In this document: piece by piece, positions 46,781-53,809 of the stretch
How positions within the stretch are numbered: position 1 is the first letter of the stretch
How the letters are laid out: the number at the start of each line of letters is the position of its first letter
Origin: Symmachiella macrocystis
Lineage (GTDB): Bacteria > Planctomycetota > Planctomycetia > Planctomycetales > Planctomycetaceae
Assembly: GCF_007860075.1 (NCBI RefSeq)
Contig: NZ_SJPP01000001.1
Span: 3,383,490 to 3,447,489, forward strand
Length of the DNA stretch: 64,000 nt
Direction: 5' to 3'
The notes under the pieces: model-generated
Told to the model about the DNA's origin: nothing
What the model saw: only the letters and a program-made list of their open reading frames with translations
Databases searched by the model: none
Made by a program: the position numbers and the translations under genes

Positions 46781-48022
46781 CTAGCGGATGTCGAAGAAAC
46801 GTTCGGCACGTTGCACGATTTTGGGATCTTTCTTGCGCAGTTCAGCCAAATGCCGGCGGGCTTTTTCTTGCAGGCCGGTCTCGTCGCCGTTCGGTTTGCG
46901 ATTGACGGCTGCGAGGACGTATTTGACGATCGCTACGCGGGCGGTTAAATCGTCGTAGTCTTTTGTGCCATACAGGCCAACCACGCGGTCCATGTCGTCC
47001 CAATCGTCCCAGCGAGCCAAGTCGCGTATTGCCATGTCGATGTGCTGCGGATGGTCGATCAGCAGTCGCATGGCTGCACGCAAACGTGGCTTGCTCACGC
47101 GGCCGTTGCCGTAAGTCCACATAAACCGCATGGCTTGCATGGCGGCCAGCAATTCGCCGTTGGGGATGTCTTTGTTTTTGAGGACTTCGGTTTCCAGAAA
47201 ATCGAGTCCACGATCACCAGTGAGCAGCAGATAGCCCCCCATCACGCCATCGACCCCCAAGCGAAAATCAGACGCGCGTTCGCGGATTTTTTTCTCCAAT
47301 AGCGCTGCGTCCGTTTCGTCGCCGCACAGCCCCAGCATCAAGCCGTACAGTCCGAGACGCGTGCCGGGGATTTGTTCGTCGAAAATCCACTTCCGCAATT
47401 TTTTCCGCGGCATGCGATCCCGAAACGAGACCACGTCTTCATAAGGCATCGAAGCGAATTCGGCGTAGGAGTCTTGAGCGATTTCGGGGTTTTTGTTTTC
47501 CAGTAGCGCCAAATAGTAATCTCCCCGTTTGGTGGCCGGTGCATCGACAGGAGGGGCGTCCATCACATACTTGATGACTTCGTCGGTCACCTCGATCATG
47601 TTGTCACCCCAGACTAGGTTTTCCGGATCGGCGCCGCGGAGCAGGTACTGTGCTCCCTCTTTGGGGGGATAGTAGCGGCGGATCACGATCTCATCGCCGA
47701 CGACCGGCGGCATGGCGCCGGGTTTGGCGTCCGCTGATTGGTCGATGACAAAGGCCTTGGCCAAAGCGGTCGAGATATGCAGCACTCGTTCGATGCGGAC
47801 CGTCGTCGTCCCCGGCTGCCCGTCTTGGCCTTCTTCACCAGCAACACGTTTCACGACCACGGTGGCATCGACCAGAAAAATCTGATTGGCGAGTGTGTCA
47901 GTCGGAGCACAAAACGGGCAAGCAACCGTGGTCGCGGCGCAGAGCAACACACCAACCACCGCCAAGCAGAAGACATATCCAGCCCGGTGAATTCGGGAGA
48001 CAACGGGATCTGGCGATTGCAT
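46781..48022 (-). CDS. Secreted ACPFC protein, paralogue B
   Basis: 413 aa. Signal peptide with cleavage near TTVACPFC. The mature chain begins with CPFC and is followed by an OB/NTR-like beta domain (VDATVVVKRVAGEEGQ, TTVRIERVLHIS, GDEIVIRRYYPPKEGAQYLL), then a helical C-terminal region with RLGLYGLMLGLCGDETDAAL, GVMGGYLLLTGDRGLDFLE and DLARWDDWDDMDRVVGLYG, ending RAERFFDIR. The order CxxC, TIMP/NTR-like barrel, helical repeats is shared with the next gene upstream (48073-49302), 50 bp away, showing a tandem duplication. Likely part of the ABC-transporter operon starting at 53412. No named family recognised. Confidence 0.72.
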   Translation of the reverse strand: MQSPDPVVSRIHRAGYVFCLAVVGVLLCAATTVACPFCAPTDTLANQIFLVDATVVVKRVAGEEGQDGQPGTTTVRIERVLHISTALAKAFVIDQSADAKPGAMPPVVGDEIVIRRYYPPKEGAQYLLRGADPENLVWGDNMIEVTDEVIKYVMDAPPVDAPATKRGDYYLALLENKNPEIAQDSYAEFASMPYEDVVSFRDRMPRKKLRKWIFDEQIPGTRLGLYGLMLGLCGDETDAALLEKKIRERASDFRLGVDGVMGGYLLLTGDRGLDFLETEVLKNKDIPNGELLAAMQAMRFMWTYGNGRVSKPRLRAAMRLLIDHPQHIDMAIRDLARWDDWDDMDRVVGLYGTKDYDDLTARVAIVKYVLAAVNRKPNGDETGLQEKARRHLAELRKKDPKIVQRAERFFDIR

Positions 48023-48072
48023 ATATCAATCCATTTCCGGCAGCGCAAGATAATTTGGCTGCAGCGGTCTGT

Positions 48073-49302
48073 TCAATTGATGATGAAGAACCGTTCCGCT
48101 TCCTTGACGGTGCGGGGGTCTTTTTGACGCAAGACGGCTAAGGCCTTTTCGGCGTCGGCGGCGCGGGGTGGGGGTTGGATGTCTTCGCCTTGGCGATCAT
48201 CTTTCGAGCAGGTCAGCAAGTAGCGGACGATGGCCCGTTTCACTGAGGGAACGTTGTATTCCTCGGCGTCGTAGAGCGCCATCAATTGTTCGAGCACCGA
48301 CCAATCCTTCCACCGCGCCAAGTCAGCGATCACCAAATCGGCCAGCTCGGGGCGCTCCAGGAGAATTCGCATCGATTGCCGCAAACGTTCCGGCTCGAAG
48401 CGGTCATCCGCATACTTCCAGACGAATCGCAGCGCCTGCATGGCGGCATAAGTTTCGCTAAACGGGACTTTCTTGTCGGGGTTTTTGACGAACTTGGTCT
48501 GCTCGATCACTTTCAAGCCCTCTTCGCCGGAGAGCAGCAGATAACCGCCGATGATGCCGTCCATTCCCAACCGAAATTGCTCGGTCTCTTCGGTGATTTT
48601 GTTCTGCATCAATTCCGCGTCGGACTCTTTACCGCACAGGCCAAGCAATAGGCCATACAGGCCGAGTCGTGTGGCTGGGGTATCGTCGTTGGTAATCCAT
48701 CCGGCGAGTTTTTCGCGAGGCAGTTGATCGGTCAGTTGCGCGATGTCCTTATAGGGAGCATTGGCGAATTCCGCATAGGCGTCGTTGGCGATCATCTCGT
48801 CGGGAAACTCTAGAAACTTCAGAAAGTACGCCAAACGTTTCTGTTGATCCGATTCCGGCGACGGCGCTTGAGCAATGTAGTTGAAGCTGGTTTCGGTGAC
48901 TTCAATCGGGCTACCCCATTCCAGTTCGTTCCCCTGCGTCCCCAGGATCAGAAAAAGGTCGCCTTTTTTGGCGGAACGGAAGCGAGCCAAATCTATTTTT
49001 TGCCCTTTTTTGAGGGTCTTCTCTTTGGTGTTCCGCAGCACTTGGGTGATTTTGTAAGTGGTGCTAGCGGGAATAAGCTTGGTGGGGTCCTCAAGCGCCA
49101 AGCCATCATCGTCGAATGCGTTCCCTTTCTTAGCGGAGACCCATTGCACCAGGACCGCAGCGTCGGCGGTGGCGAGTTGTTCGCTGAAGGTCAACGAGGG
49201 GGCGCTGCAAAACGGACAAGCGAGTAGCGTCGCTTCGGCCGTCGATACGAACGTTGCGATGCCCAATGCTAACAACATAACCATCTGGCGGGCGATTCGC
49301 AT
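48073..49302 (-). CDS. Secreted ACPFC protein, paralogue A
   Basis: 409 aa from ATG 49302 with AAGGAG 8 bases upstream; the longer ORF is not used. Signal peptide to about residue 24, mature start LLACPFCSAPSLTFSEQL. NTR/TIMP-like barrel (ADAAVLVQWVSAKKG, TTYKITQVLRNTKEK, SAKKGDLFLILGTQG) and helical part (RLGLYGLLLGLCGKESDAEL, GIIGGYLLLSGEEGLKVIE, DLARWKDWSVLEQLMALYD), ending AERFFIIN. Colinear with paralogue B throughout. The invariant CPFC after the signal peptide resembles the N-terminal Cys-x-Cys of TIMPs, which chelates the metal of a target metalloprotease; that parallel is inference only. Confidence 0.74.
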   Translation of the reverse strand: MRIARQMVMLLALGIATFVSTAEATLLACPFCSAPSLTFSEQLATADAAVLVQWVSAKKGNAFDDDGLALEDPTKLIPASTTYKITQVLRNTKEKTLKKGQKIDLARFRSAKKGDLFLILGTQGNELEWGSPIEVTETSFNYIAQAPSPESDQQKRLAYFLKFLEFPDEMIANDAYAEFANAPYKDIAQLTDQLPREKLAGWITNDDTPATRLGLYGLLLGLCGKESDAELMQNKITEETEQFRLGMDGIIGGYLLLSGEEGLKVIEQTKFVKNPDKKVPFSETYAAMQALRFVWKYADDRFEPERLRQSMRILLERPELADLVIADLARWKDWSVLEQLMALYDAEEYNVPSVKRAIVRYLLTCSKDDRQGEDIQPPPRAADAEKALAVLRQKDPRTVKEAERFFIIN

Positions 49303-49438
49303 GTGAAGTACTCCTTGTCCGAACAGGCCGAACCAACTGTGAATTCTGTGAAATTTTGTTGCAAAACCCTCAGTCGCTTTCCGCGGACGATTGACTGTCA
49401 GTCTCGCAAATAGGTGCGGCCGGGTTTTGAAAGTGGGA

Positions 49439-50338
49439 TTAACGATCCATGACAATCGCGTCATCGATCAAATACAGCCCGTCGACTTTTTTGTCGTCGT
49501 AGGTCAGCATTTCAATATGAAACGTGCCAACAACATCAAAGGGACGGTTTTGAATGTATTTCGTGGTGACGCCTTTGCGCATCACGATTTGTATCACGTC
49601 ATAAGGTTTGGGATTGCGGCCGAAGCAGCAGATTTCGTTGTCGCGCGCTAAGATGAACGACGGATTTTCGGTATCTGAAAATGGTGGGTACATAAACCCC
49701 CGCAAGCGGATGCGTTTGCCGTCGAGGTCCTTCAGCCATTTTGGCATCAAATCTGGAGCGTCTAGCGAGACTGGGTCCATGTTGAGGATCTTCAATAGGT
49801 CAACGTCGTCGTAAGAGACGCGCAGTGCTCCGTCCGGTTCCACTTTTTGAAAGGACTTGTCCGGGATGAGCAGTTTGACTTCTCGCGGTTCAGCGGGAAT
49901 CAACTCCGACGGATCCTCACCGGTGATCTCTTCAGGCCGCATGCCATTGGGCAGCGTGTTCGCTGCTGTGGGAGGAAAGTTCGCCGTGTTGGTCGCTGAG
50001 GCGTCCGGCGCCGTCGATGCGGTCGCCAGTTGTAAGGAGGGATCTTCGGGTGGGTTTTTTGAGGCAAAGAGAGCCGGTGGTCGCTCGATGGGAGCGGCTT
50101 GGTCTGCGGTTTGCTTAGTGGCTTGCTCTGCGGCTGTGGATTCCGTCGGAGACGTTGCTTCAGCAGCGGTTTGTTTTTCCGCTTCGAGCTCAGCTAACGT
50201 CGACTGCATTTCCGAAGAATCGATTGTGAGCAGCGGTTTGTCGGGGGGATTTTTGCCGCAACCGGAGAGCAGGCCGGCACCCGTGACCAAAATCATGCAT
50301 AACCCAATGGACTGCGCAGCGCAACGTTTGCTTTTCAT
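49439..50338 (-). CDS. Lipoprotein with DUF3299-like domain
   Basis: 299 aa. Lipobox LLSGC with lipidated Cys27. A low-complexity Thr/Ala/Glu linker (about 50-135) precedes the domain: KRIRLRGFMYPPFSDTEN, ILARDNEICCFGRNPKPYDV, NRPFDVVGTFHIE. The GFM..P / CCFG / V.G pattern is shared with the next gene (GYMFPGRKTTD, DCCFGGQPKIED) and with DUF3299 proteins of Pseudomonas and Vibrio zinc-regulated operons. Its start overlaps the previous gene's stop by 4 bases (ATGA). Placed on the outer or inner membrane, probably as metal-binding partner of the transporter. Confidence 0.8.
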   Translation of the reverse strand: MKSKRCAAQSIGLCMILVTGAGLLSGCGKNPPDKPLLTIDSSEMQSTLAELEAEKQTAAEATSPTESTAAEQATKQTADQAAPIERPPALFASKNPPEDPSLQLATASTAPDASATNTANFPPTAANTLPNGMRPEEITGEDPSELIPAEPREVKLLIPDKSFQKVEPDGALRVSYDDVDLLKILNMDPVSLDAPDLMPKWLKDLDGKRIRLRGFMYPPFSDTENPSFILARDNEICCFGRNPKPYDVIQIVMRKGVTTKYIQNRPFDVVGTFHIEMLTYDDKKVDGLYLIDDAIVMDR

Positions 50339-51078
50339 CTCACGTGGTATCCTTCCAACGTATATACGGGTCTGAGGCCATCGGAAATACGGACGCGGTT
50401 GTCCAGCCTCAGTTTGCCGCCGATTCCAACCGGCGTTGTTTGTGAGCGCAAATCAATTTTCATGTCGTTTTGCAACTCAACCAAAATCATGTCTTCGATT
50501 TTCGGTTGTCCCCCAAAACAGCAATCACCCGAATCCTTAACGAGCACAAACGTATCAATATCCGTCGTCTTGCGTCCGGGAAACATATAGCCCTTGATGA
50601 AGATGTCCTTGTTGTCTAACGCTTGGATATCCTCATCCAATTGGAACTGACCGTTGACCACTTTCGGGGACTGACGGGCAAACCACTTGAAACTAATTCG
50701 CTCATGTCCTTCAGGGAGTTCAGCGATGTATTGGTAGGTCAAAAAAGTCGAACCACCGATCACGCTGATCAATGAAAGCGCTAGGCCCACCTTAGCCAGC
50801 ATGCCGCCGCCCAACTCACCCCCGGAGCTGCGGATTTTCCATAGCGCTGCTGCGCCCATCAGAAAACCCATCGCCCCGATTGCCAAGGCTTCCCACGCCA
50901 AGAAACCGGCGGCCGAGCAAAGCCCAAAAAACAGCGCAACAGGCGCCAAGGGCGTTACGGGTCGGTAATCAAATTCTTTGTCTACTGCTGGAGATATCGG
51001 CGTCGCTGTAGAAGTCTCGACGGCCGTTTCCGTGGATTCTTCCATCTCATGATGTTGTGGAGCTTCGATCGTCGACAT
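50335..51078 (-). CDS. Membrane protein with DUF3299-like domain
   Basis: 247 aa from ATG 51078, preceded by AGGGTGG; a GTG three codons upstream is possible. Acidic N-terminal segment, then two or three helices (about 45-60, 64-82, 96-118; SAAGFLAWEALAIGAMGFLM, then LAKVGLALSLISVIGGSTF) as in DUF4190-type anchors, then the DUF3299-like module: NKDIFIKGYMFPGRKTTD, DSGDCCFGGQPKIEDMI, GIGGKLRLDNRVRISD. The 4-bp overlap with the lipoprotein gene indicates translational coupling. A 250-bp gap separates it from the permease stop, room for a second promoter. Confidence 0.78.
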   Translation of the reverse strand: MSTIEAPQHHEMEESTETAVETSTATPISPAVDKEFDYRPVTPLAPVALFFGLCSAAGFLAWEALAIGAMGFLMGAAALWKIRSSGGELGGGMLAKVGLALSLISVIGGSTFLTYQYIAELPEGHERISFKWFARQSPKVVNGQFQLDEDIQALDNKDIFIKGYMFPGRKTTDIDTFVLVKDSGDCCFGGQPKIEDMILVELQNDMKIDLRSQTTPVGIGGKLRLDNRVRISDGLRPVYTLEGYHVR

Positions 51079-51328
51079 AATCGCCACCCTGTCGTCAGTT
51101 CAGGTCCTGGATTAACGCAATGAAATAACAAGATAAAACAGTTTGCCGGTTCTGGACCGTGAGCGGCCTCGCGAATCGGAGAAGAAACGTAAGGAAATAC
51201 TACGTACTATCATATCATCAAACCAGCGCAGGACTACCCCTCGTCCGTCAAAACGTTGACTAACGCCGAGGTCTTTTCCTGCATGCCGCTGGATTTTGCG
51301 CGACACGTATCGCCGACAGAGTCAACTG

Positions 51329-52741
51329 TTAGTTGGACAGTGCTTTGGCCACATCCGTGCGATAAGCTGTCATCCCAGGCACCATTCCCACCAGGGATGC
51401 CAGTACAACCAGTGCGGGGATCAAAACCAGTTCAAACCATTCAAACGCCCACGGATTCATGACGATACCGCTTTTGGCTTCGACATACGGGGCTGCGGCG
51501 AAAACCAATCCGTGTCCGAGCAGAACGCCCAGAATTCCACCGCCCACACAGAGCAAAATCGATTCGGCCAGAATGATGGCAAACACACTGCCGCGTCGCG
51601 CGCCGAGAGCCCGCATGATGGCGATCTCGCGTTTGCGGTCCGACATGGAGTTGTAAATGCTCACAAAAATTCCCACACCCGAGACCAAGATGATCATCGA
51701 GATCAACACCAGCAGCATCAACTGCACGTTGTCGATGAACGTTGAGAACAACAGGCTGATCTGTTGAATCGGACTGACCGCCTGAGCCTCGGGTTGGTCG
51801 TTGATGAAGCCCTGCAACTGCGGCGTGACGATTGGCGATTTCGTACGAACGAGGACCGCCGTGACTTCCTTTTGCTCGTCGGGGATCGGTCCGTGATCGT
51901 GATGATGGTGCCCGGCATGAGCATCGTGCGATTCGTCGCTATGCGCATCGTCGCTATGCGCATCGTCGCCATGAGCATCGTCACCGTCTGCGTGGTCGTC
52001 GTGTGTCTCATCGTGCGCTGTTGCGGCAGGTACGGCTTCGCCTTTCATTTTCCTCAGAGCGGCTGCTTTCGCGGCGGCTTCGTCGGCGGGTTTTTCGTGC
52101 CCTTCGATCATGTAAAACCCATCGAGGTGTACGAAGACCCCTTTGTCATTTGGTGTGCCGGTACGACCGAGGACACCGACGACGGTGAATTCTTCATCAT
52201 GCACGTGCGCATCGCCCGAGCCGTCGTCGACACCGTGGACCGGTTTGAAGGTGCTGCCGATGTCCCAGTTGTTCGCGCGGGCGACCGAAGCACCGATGAC
52301 CGCGTCGAACGGCTTGGAGATATACCGCCCTCCCTTATAGACGCCATATTTTTTGCCCGGCATGTATTCGACGCCGAAGAACTCCGGAATGGTGCCCATG
52401 ATGCGAAAGCCCCCCTGTTGGGTGGTATCGCCTAGCGCCAGGGGAATGGCTGCTTCGATGCGCGGGTTGGCTTTGAGGTCTTTGTAATACAGGTAGGGAA
52501 TGTTTTCGACCGGTTTGCCGAGGTGGAAAATCGTGTTGAGTACCAATTGCAGCGAGCTGCCTTTGGCGCCGACGATTAGGTCGTACCCCGTGGCGGGCTG
52601 ATTGAATGTTTTGAAAATCACGCCGTGCATGACCAGCACGGTCACCATTAACGTGACGCCCAGTGCGACGCTCAGTGCCGTGAGCGACGATGCCAAGGCC
52701 CGTTGCCGAATGCTTTTCCATGCGATTGTGACTAGGTTCAT
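51329..52741 (-). CDS. ABC transporter permease (FtsX/MacB type) with His-rich loop
   Basis: 470 aa. MacB/FtsX topology: one N-terminal helix (21-45), a large extracytoplasmic domain, then three C-terminal helices (LMLLVLISMIILVSGVGIF, IILAESILLCVGGGILGVLL, ELVLIPALVVLASLVGMVPG). Residues 242-284 form an acidic, histidine-rich insert with 13 His (AHDETHDDHADGDDAHGDD and HSDESHDAHAGHHHHDHG), typical of zinc-handling proteins. Start overlaps the ATPase stop by 4 bases. The family works by mechanotransmission rather than classic import. The His loop is also visible as imperfect 15-bp repeats around 51930-51990. Confidence 0.9.
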   Translation of the reverse strand: MNLVTIAWKSIRQRALASSLTALSVALGVTLMVTVLVMHGVIFKTFNQPATGYDLIVGAKGSSLQLVLNTIFHLGKPVENIPYLYYKDLKANPRIEAAIPLALGDTTQQGGFRIMGTIPEFFGVEYMPGKKYGVYKGGRYISKPFDAVIGASVARANNWDIGSTFKPVHGVDDGSGDAHVHDEEFTVVGVLGRTGTPNDKGVFVHLDGFYMIEGHEKPADEAAAKAAALRKMKGEAVPAATAHDETHDDHADGDDAHGDDAHSDDAHSDESHDAHAGHHHHDHGPIPDEQKEVTAVLVRTKSPIVTPQLQGFINDQPEAQAVSPIQQISLLFSTFIDNVQLMLLVLISMIILVSGVGIFVSIYNSMSDRKREIAIMRALGARRGSVFAIILAESILLCVGGGILGVLLGHGLVFAAAPYVEAKSGIVMNPWAFEWFELVLIPALVVLASLVGMVPGMTAYRTDVAKALSN

Positions 52742-53412
52742 TTCGACCCTCCCGGTTTATTGAAATCTCCCAGTCGTTCCGTCCGGTCGAATTGACCGGC
52801 AACGTCCAGCGAGTGCGTGACCAGCAACAACGAAACGTTCCGTTCGCTGCAGGCATCGCGAATGAGCTTTAAGACCAACTCCTGATTTTTGACGTCGACA
52901 TTGGCAGTCGGTTCGTCGGCTAACAATAAGGAAGGTTGGTTGGCCAACGAGCGGGCGACGGCCACGCGTTGCTGTTCGCCGACCGAAAGCGTGCCGGGAC
53001 GGTGATTGAGGCGATGTCCCAAACCGACCCGTTCCAGAAGTTCCTGAGCGACTTTCTTACCGCCCGAGTTGCCGGCGAAGCTCATGCCCAGCATCACGTT
53101 TTCTAACGCCGTGAAAGCGTCCAGCAGATTGAACGTTTGGAAGACAAACCCAATCCGCTCCGCGCGAAACCGATCCCGTTTGACCTCCATCATGCCGGTC
53201 AAGTCGTAGCCATCGACGGCGATGCTGCCGGCATCGGCTTGGGTGATGCCGGAAATCACGTTGAGTAAGGTCGTCTTTCCGCCGCCGCTTTCGCCGACCA
53301 GCACGACCTGCTCCCCTTTTTCCAGCGCAAAATGCTCCACGTCCAAAATCGGCAGTTTCGTGCCGTCCGGCTCGGTGTAGCTTTTGCGGACCCCTTTAAG
53401 TTCTAACGACAT
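52738..53412 (-). CDS. ABC transporter ATPase (LolD/MacB type)
   Basis: 224 aa. Walker A GESGGGKTTLLN, Q-loop FQTFNLLDAFTALEN, signature LSVGEQQRVAVARSLANQ, Walker B LLLADEPTANVD, H-loop VTHSLDVA. Short N-terminus (LELKGVRKSYTEPDGT) as in the LolD/MacB/FtsE group. Powers the adjacent permease. First gene of a minus-strand series reaching 46781. An imperfect regulatory candidate (inverted repeat GCAATT-C-AATTGC) lies 211 bp upstream. Confidence 0.94.
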   Translation of the reverse strand: MSLELKGVRKSYTEPDGTKLPILDVEHFALEKGEQVVLVGESGGGKTTLLNVISGITQADAGSIAVDGYDLTGMMEVKRDRFRAERIGFVFQTFNLLDAFTALENVMLGMSFAGNSGGKKVAQELLERVGLGHRLNHRPGTLSVGEQQRVAVARSLANQPSLLLADEPTANVDVKNQELVLKLIRDACSERNVSLLLVTHSLDVAGQFDRTERLGDFNKPGGSK

Positions 53413-53809
53413 TCCGGCTCCATATCATCCGGGAGTGACTGCGGACACGATCTCAGCCAGTTTTTAGCGGAGGGCGCATTTCGTAAGTGGTTCCATTTCA
53501 GCTGTTTGCAACGACCGTCAAGGTTGAGCGGCGTTCGTTGTTGGCCATCATCTTTGCAGATCCCGTTCGAGTCAAGCAGTCGAAGCAGGCAATAGTTGTG
53601 TTGCTACGGAAATAGTCTATCCGCAATTCAATTGCAATAACTACGCGATAGATTGGGGGAATGTTGGAAACGTTTTTTTGACGACGAGAAAAAACCGAAA
53701 TACCTACTCTCCCTTGATCCGACCAACGTTTTCGTCCCATGATGAGCCTAAGAACCGCTCCTTGCGAAGTGGACAATCCGCCAACCTGCTCTCTCAGACA
53801 TCAACGATC
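53413..53809. other. 397-bp divergent region between transporter operon and esterase
   Basis: Contains the perfect small palindrome GCAATT-C-AATTGC at 53623-53635 in an AT-rich setting, a plausible operator for one or both flanking genes. No further gene is supported; upstream in-frame extensions of the esterase are not used. Confidence 0.5.
53623..53635. promoter_or_regulatory. Candidate operator palindrome upstream of the metal-type ABC operon
   Basis: GCAATT-C-AATTGC, perfect 6-bp arms, 1-base centre, midway between the ATPase start (53412) and the esterase start (53810). A zinc-responsive Fur-family regulator (Zur) would be expected for a Zrm-like operon; this palindrome is AT-rich like Zur boxes but does not match a known consensus closely. 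Confidence 0.3.

Follow-up and report, generated by a model that had tools for sequence, protein, structure and literature searches.

The window analyzed here is the whole of a 64,000-nucleotide stretch of the genome of Symmachiella macrocystis (Planctomycetota; contig NZ_SJPP01000001.1, positions 3,383,490 to 3,447,489). Its subject of interest is a block of six open reading frames (ORFs) on the minus strand at 46781-53412, transcribed in the order ATP-binding cassette (ABC) ATPase, permease, membrane-anchored DUF3299 protein, DUF3299 lipoprotein, ACPFC protein 1 and ACPFC protein 2 (Table 1). An earlier note, made from the letters of the window alone, had read this block as a possible planctomycete version of a zinc-regulated ABC system. 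Its description of the genes holds: the ORF list of the window contains all six frames at the positions and on the strand that it gave, and the 4-bp overlaps that it reported at two junctions are those of ATPase with permease (52738-52741) and of the two DUF3299 genes (50335-50338). The permease gene is separated from the membrane DUF3299 gene by a 241 bp gap, and the block may therefore comprise two transcription units. The ORF of ACPFC protein 1 as first listed runs into the lipoprotein gene; translation probably begins at the ATG at 49302, which is preceded by AAGGAG. Scans of the window with Rfam and for tRNAs returned no match.

Table 1. Features of the six-gene block and its surroundings, with the evidence for each
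Feature	Coordinates	Strand	Evidence
ABC ATPase, LolD/MacB type (ZrgC/PA4064-like)	52738..53412	-	PF00005 (ABC_tran; Pfam), E 4.6e-33; Walker A; LSVGE
4-TM (transmembrane segment) MacB/LolC-type permease (ZrgB/PA4065-like)	51329..52741	-	FtsX and MacB_PCD domains (Pfam); Pseudomonas plasmid homolog
His/Asp-rich segment of permease, residues 242-284	51890..52018	-	13 His and 13 Asp in 43 residues
Membrane-anchored DUF3299 protein, CCFG motif	50335..51087	-	PF11736, 22.9 bits; profile comparison with lipoprotein family
Lipoprotein with predicted C-terminal DUF3299 OB-like domain	49439..50338	-	Lipobox LLSGC; alignment; AlphaFold2 (AF2) model; Foldseek; family profile
Secreted ACPFC protein 1: N-terminal CPFC, beta domain, C-terminal alpha-solenoid	48073..49302	-	AF2 model; start inferred
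Secreted ACPFC protein 2	46781..48022	-	40% identical to ACPFC protein 1; no Pfam match
Candidate Fur-family operator TTGCAATTGAATTGCGG	53621..53637	.	2 mismatches to TTGCAA-N5-TTGCAA; 209 bp upstream of ATPase
Planctomycete ABC - lipoprotein - DUF3299 loci, mostly with a His-rich lipoprotein (L062-L066, L069, L074, L075, L078, L079)			

The ATPase is of the LolD/MacB type, as the note had it, and its best NCBIfam match is LolD (201.1 bits, under a cut-off of 307.75). The permease has four hydrophobic segments (residues 20-38, 342-360, 386-404 and 436-454); against the LolCE model of NCBIfam it reaches 35.8 bits, the cut-off being 362.45. Among 72,556 plasmid records its best-ranked matches lie on a Pseudomonas aeruginosa plasmid (L080) and on Phaeobacter plasmids. 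Six plasmid regions were inspected, including those of Pseudomonas aeruginosa, Phaeobacter, Aeromonas, Catenovulum, Deinococcus and Azospirillum. The P. aeruginosa permease is annotated within an operon of the order DUF2796, ABC ATPase, permease, DUF3299; the first Phaeobacter match is annotated with the same order behind a Fur-family gene; and the order reappears in an unannotated Aeromonas record, where our own models found it. In the Catenovulum set the DUF3299 gene is on the opposite strand, and the region holds no DUF2796 gene. The window permease, with its loop removed, matches the P. aeruginosa plasmid permease at E 4.1e-62 across 389 residues, whereas the best match between the latter and the seven FtsX paralogs of the Symmachiella genome is only 7.8e-9; measured against these paralogs, the relation is clear. 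These computations show the permease to be, by sequence, a homolog of the Zrg-type MacB-like permease, and they support homology of the block to the ZrgABCDE (Vibrio) and PA4063-PA4066 (Pseudomonas) systems, the kinship of the ATPase to ZrgC and PA4064 being judged by family and adjacency.

The kinship to these two systems that the note proposed therefore stands for the permease and for DUF3299 (see below), but the name ZrmABCD that it attached to PA4063-PA4066 does not: that name belongs to a different operon, that of pseudopaline (PMC11481552, PMC8561739). No pseudopaline synthesis or transport gene is found among the Pfam and NCBIfam matches of the block. Two further arrangements of the ABC genes were seen: genome G167 has a second, very divergent ATPase-permease-DUF3299 set (L054), and in one relative (L040, 7075-8456) two genes that look by eye like an HD-domain and a dioxygenase gene are inserted between permease and DUF3299.

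With LolD as the best score of the ATPase, and with a DUF3299 lipoprotein and, in relatives, His-rich lipoproteins encoded alongside, one might picture the ABC pair as a Lol-like machine that extracts or activates these lipoproteins, the handling of metal being left to the cargo. The block does have the ABC superfamily architecture in common with LolCDE. However, both scores fall far below the LolD and LolCE cut-offs, and only one of the two DUF3299 proteins carries a lipobox, the other having membrane segments; we consider a Lol-like machine very unlikely.

The assignment of the two middle proteins to DUF3299 needs some argument. The membrane protein passes the PF11736 cut-off of 22 narrowly (Table 1), the lipoprotein falls below it at 15.8 bits, and a search of the whole genome with the Pfam model recovers neither of them. 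Its sole match is another DUF3299 gene (L009, C1:2647259-2647609; 57 bits, 247 aa). The assignment accordingly rests on family profiles and fold. Profile comparison of the membrane and lipoprotein families gives E 1.2e-32. A single-sequence search of the PDB with the membrane protein finds no match, and with the lipoprotein family profile PA4066 (4hsp) ranks first among PDB sequences, with a weak E (0.008). In the AF2 model of the lipoprotein the DUF3299 domain mostly has pLDDT >90, and Foldseek returns 4hsp/PA4066 as the sole match at or below 0.001, with E 2.1e-5 and a TM-score of 0.48 by target length. By these computations, on sequence and on a predicted structure, both proteins are identified as DUF3299 OB-like proteins.

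A Cys pair marks these proteins: CCF is invariant in the 39 aligned lipoprotein relatives, and the pair of the ACPFC proteins is likewise invariant in the first 23 aligned sequences and near-invariant in 57. Such constancy might suggest that CCFG, CPFC and ACPFC are redox pairs of a thiol system, in which the ABC transporter moves a thiol compound and the His-rich loop is incidental. Three proteobacterial DUF3299 proteins argue otherwise, for at the CCFG position they have C-x-H with a single Cys, so that a metal ligand suits better than a redox pair; moreover, His-rich elements recur in or beside the permease. We hold a thiol system to be highly improbable. Two 'hypothetical' genes that lie ahead of ABC genes, in Deinococcus MP1 (L082, 5743-6201) and Azospirillum pAB510c (L085, 4762-5178), encode small proteins that we read as divergent DUF3299 relatives with CPFC at the CCFG position, a reading made by eye and from the alignment with no significance value attached. 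In both, alkaline phosphatase genes are found nearby.

The permease and DUF3299 go together across genomes. FtsX permeases of any kind are present in 245 of the 246 genomes of the phylum, for which reason their count is uninformative; membrane DUF3299 matches (E 1e-3) are found in 79 of the 246 and ACPFC matches in 18. Within the class (98 genomes), the permease (E 1e-30) and DUF3299 (E 1e-8) are each found in 49 genomes, and these are the identical 49. Even in family f87, which mostly has neither, the 3 of 24 genomes that have one have the other. In 28 of the 49 genomes the two genes are within 5.5 kb of each other on one strand; computation shows the permease and DUF3299 genes to be inherited together, linked or not. 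The hypergeometric value for this comparison makes no correction for phylogeny. ACPFC genes (E 1e-8) are found in 70 of the 98 genomes, 43 of which are among the 49; in 40 of these 43 an ACPFC gene has DUF3299 no more than 5.5 kb away on its own strand, and in 21 it has the permease so placed. A further set is 80 named loci retrieved through ACPFC, which include Gimesia, Thalassoglobus, Schlesneria, Planctomicrobium and Planctomyces: DUF3299 is the recognized gene before ACPFC in 59 and went unrecognized in 21, where the retrieved DNA was often short, and the permease falls within the DNA in 19. The split loci agree with there being two units, ABC and DUF3299-ACPFC, which evolution has kept in company. 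The gene order, whose conservation the note proposed to check, is conserved in many planctomycetes.

The ACPFC proteins have a wider existence of their own. They occur in 27 genomes in which neither permease nor DUF3299 was detected, the f3 and f87 genomes have the system without them, and at L121-L125 and the Schlesneria loci L171 and L177-L180 the ACPFC genes, mostly in tandem, stand in retrieved DNA in which no ABC or DUF3299 gene was recognized. The family thus exists independently of the ABC/DUF3299 system. That they are new partners of the system, as the note had it, is borne out by linkage in the lineage of the window but qualified by the 27 genomes (of 70) that have them without it. 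Neither ACPFC protein of the block matches a Pfam or NCBIfam model, no relative in the PDB is found by sequence, and four ACPFC N-terminal domains have no Pfam match; of two relatives scanned with Pfam, one gave a HEAT_2 match below cut-off and the other a match at chance level. Kinship to DUF3299 was considered and rejected, there being no profile match. The AF2 model of ACPFC protein 1 (mean pLDDT 93.6) consists of a beta domain at ~48-135 followed by an alpha-solenoid that, in fold searches, resembles armadillo/HEAT proteins in fold only; the solenoid filled the lists of these searches, so that they hardly probed the beta domain. The N-terminal layout may be like that of TIMP. C-x-x-C lies within the first 90 residues of 50 of 57 ACPFC sequences, and because lipobox-like residues precede the Cys in only 7 of these 50, most mature ACPFC proteins probably begin at this Cys after ordinary signal-peptide cleavage.

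The most conspicuous feature of the permease is its His/Asp-rich segment. The residue count confirms the 13-His loop described in the note, a density of His that none of 20000 shuffles of the permease sequence reached. The segment belongs to the large TM1-TM2 loop, which with a MacB-like topology would face the periplasm. Elsewhere the His-rich element is a protein in its own right. In the ten planctomycete loci of Table 1 a lipoprotein-like protein of 160-228 residues (as called) is encoded between permease and DUF3299, and 8 of the 10 have at least 5 His within some 20-residue stretch. These calls come from gene maps drawn for 40 loci with a crude gene caller. Four of the intervening lipoproteins were scanned, with no Pfam match near cut-off. 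Kinship between the His-rich lipoprotein and DUF2796 was also considered, and found no support: profile probability was 5% over 22 columns, in what is a weak test with two DUF2796 rows. A Pfam search limited to the six proteins of the block finds no DUF2796, as the note had said, and a two-row model recognizes none within four genes of 18 permeases of the Symmachiella family.

Among 66 related permeases, 25 have at least 5 His in the aligned loop. A separate His-rich gene (DUF2796 or the planctomycete lipoprotein, recognized within four genes on the same strand) accompanies none of these 25 and 13 of the other 41 (Fisher p 0.001, uncorrected for phylogeny). For L108 a fused frame makes the loop count too high, and L085, which is below the permease threshold, was added to the tree by hand. 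On the permease tree, well-supported branches carry at least 7 changes of the loop trait. Comparison of pairs of independent lineages supports mutual exclusion of loop and separate gene neither one way nor the other: the separate gene is confined to few clades, and the test is consequently without power and uninformative. A His-rich loop and a separate His-rich gene are both absent from the f2 and f94 loci examined. The exchange of capture modules between loop and separate gene is suggested by these comparisons. The note's phrase, that the loop was 'moved into' the permease, agrees with the finding that the two never occur together, but less well with the powerless lineage test and with the His-poor loops that occur in the same family.

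When inverted repeats ahead of the ATPase gene were sought blind, variants of one motif came out on top. As TTGCAA-N5-TTGCAA with up to 2 mismatches, the motif is found upstream of the ATPase in 9 of 29 regions of the family and in the window, that is, in 10 of 30 (0.34 expected), and in 6 of 36 regions of other families (0.28 expected), the null being shuffled two-base blocks, not a full dinucleotide-preserving shuffle. Several of the family's sites, those of the close relatives L040, L042, L163 and L164, are almost copies of one another, so that the ten do not count as ten independent ones. In 22 genomes there are 15 exact palindromes, of which 2 are upstream of the ATPase and 3 just upstream of a Fur-family gene. 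These three Fur-family genes are in three f2 genomes; one of the proteins was checked against models, and the sequences of the other two are clearly related to it. The Symmachiella genome encodes two homologs of this palindrome-linked regulator, 44% and 38% identical, and one further Fur-family protein; no palindrome with up to 2 mismatches could be placed upstream of its own Fur and ZnuA genes. Computation shows the palindrome to be recurrent; that it is a Fur-family operator is supported by its context and remains a candidate assignment, and part of the block is probably under a metal switch of the Fur type. Of the Zur control that the note names for the known systems, the block shows a candidate Fur-family operator upstream of the ATPase, and the scores of the regulator do not identify it as Zur.

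Two side observations belong here. In two related genomes exact palindromes precede genes that, by eye, encode a small secreted protein and a pseudopilin-like protein (L226 with L233, L231 with L232), possibly further members of a regulon. The block has no match to PF01297, the cluster A-I binding protein; the sole PF01297 protein of the genome is part of a metal ABC operon elsewhere (L090, C1:1441000-1452000) which, because the gene divergent from it looks by eye like DtxR/MntR, may serve manganese or iron rather than zinc.

The closest published comparison is ZrgABCDE, with which the block has in common a MacB-like 4-TM permease (ZrgB), an ATPase (ZrgC), DUF3299 (ZrgE), a His-rich element and, as a candidate, Fur-family control. 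It differs in having no gene for DUF2796 (ZrgA), the His-rich segment being within the permease, and in having two DUF3299 proteins rather than one and the ACPFC proteins. With PA4063-PA4066 it has in common permease homology over most of the length (compared with the plasmid operon) and the DUF3299 fold match to PA4066; unlike that system it has no PA4063-like protein, and its Cys site is CCFG instead of CIH. The ten planctomycete lipoprotein clusters agree with the block in their ATPase, permease and DUF3299 families and in the order of these genes but have, unlike the block, a separate lipoprotein gene, a short, His-poor permease loop and no recognized ACPFC gene adjoining.

In the light of these comparisons we think it probable, if with modest confidence, that the block is a planctomycete branch of a metal-starvation system of the Zrg/PA4063-66 kind that works by mechanotransmission in the periplasm, and that its metal is most likely zinc. 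The links to metal would be the His-rich loop, the His-rich lipoproteins, a ZnuA gene just upstream of the ATPase at L076, a Fur gene divergent from the ATPase at L075, and the Fur-DUF2796-ABC-DUF3299 arrangement of Phaeobacter. Several results pull the other way. The palindrome is not enriched before DUF3299 genes (3 of 89, 0.91 expected) or ACPFC genes (0 of 69); the 15 exact palindromes compare with 9 of a reversed control, which is no clear enrichment, and 10 of the 15 are at neither an ATPase nor a Fur-family gene; the regulator linked to the palindrome has Fur and PerR as its best NCBIfam matches, all far below cut-offs; 79 of 82 immediate neighbors were scanned, and no recurrent metal family appears in the best 25 of 101 families; and the loop holds fewer than 5 His in 4 of the 18 permeases that represent the Symmachiella family in the tree. 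A published proposal assigns PA4064/PA4065 to the export of pyochelin, possibly with cobalt (PMC11481552).

That proposal, together with the MacB-type architecture, which the block has in common with MacAB-TolC, is also what commends an export pump: a MacB-like pair that expels a metal chelate or metallophore from the periplasm, with the His-rich loop sensing or stripping the metal. We consider this quite unlikely. The six proteins include no MacA-type adaptor, TolC or other outer-membrane channel, or product of a chelator synthesis gene (for MacA the search covered the block, not the genome elsewhere), and a Vibrio strain that lacks ZnuA requires ZrgA to grow in low zinc (PMC9820375). The same regulator scores, and a palindrome that a literature search did not return as a described box, could be taken to indicate that the metal handled is iron, copper, cobalt or manganese, or that the system answers to envelope stress in general under Fur control. 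This is an unlikely but not a negligible alternative; against it stand the induction of the homologous Vibrio zrg genes in low zinc (PMC9817125), the Phaeobacter adjacent regulator, whose best score is with Zur, below cut-off, and the adjoining ZnuA gene at L076.

How would a metal-starvation system of the Zrg kind work? The permease would offer no metal passage like that of ZnuB; instead it would transmit mechanical motion in the manner of MacB, whose shape published work also gives to ZrgB (PMC9817125, PMC9820375). ATP hydrolysis would move the large periplasmic domain of the permease, and the His/Asp segment would capture a transition metal, most likely zinc, which would be passed to, or taken from, the membrane-anchored, Cys-bearing (CCFG) DUF3299 proteins; in other lineages capture would fall to a separate His-rich protein. 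The metal, its direction and its hand-over are what we infer from the comparisons above. A repressor of the Fur family would turn on the ABC genes when its metal is short, and the ACPFC proteins may be exported scaffold or metal-site proteins added in the lineage of the window. More tentatively, and at less than even probability, there might be one docking place for metal capture, occupied interchangeably by DUF2796, by the planctomycete His-rich lipoprotein or by the permease loop, with DUF3299 effecting the hand-over and ACPFC serving as relay scaffold. If that were true, the His segment would act at the periplasmic domain of the permease, with the Cys site of DUF3299 as the hand-over point; the His loop would have been gained or lost repeatedly, the DUF2796 alternative being a ferredoxin-like protein; and ACPFC would be a new family of metal-relay scaffolds whose mature end may start with a metal-binding Cys-Pro-Phe-Cys, ahead of the beta domain and the alpha-solenoid.

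The literature searched yielded no published description of a Zrg variant with the His-rich element borne by the permease. Judged by titles and abstracts, none of the papers on DUF3299 or DUF2796 is about planctomycetes, and the single paper matched on planctomycete zinc regulators is about ZepA, a different system; a search on MacB, histidine-rich, zinc and lipoprotein in planctomycetes matched only unrelated papers. Papers differ on how the MacB-like machine serves in zinc starvation, by uptake (Vibrio) or by export (Pseudomonas), and a His-rich part built into the permease itself would single out the periplasmic domain as the site of metal handling. The planctomycete variant would also have brought in, with ACPFC, a new family of exported proteins, of which no description is known from the Pfam and NCBIfam matches of the window proteins, and the Zrg-type system would extend across Planctomycetota, far beyond the Gram-negative pathogens studied so far.

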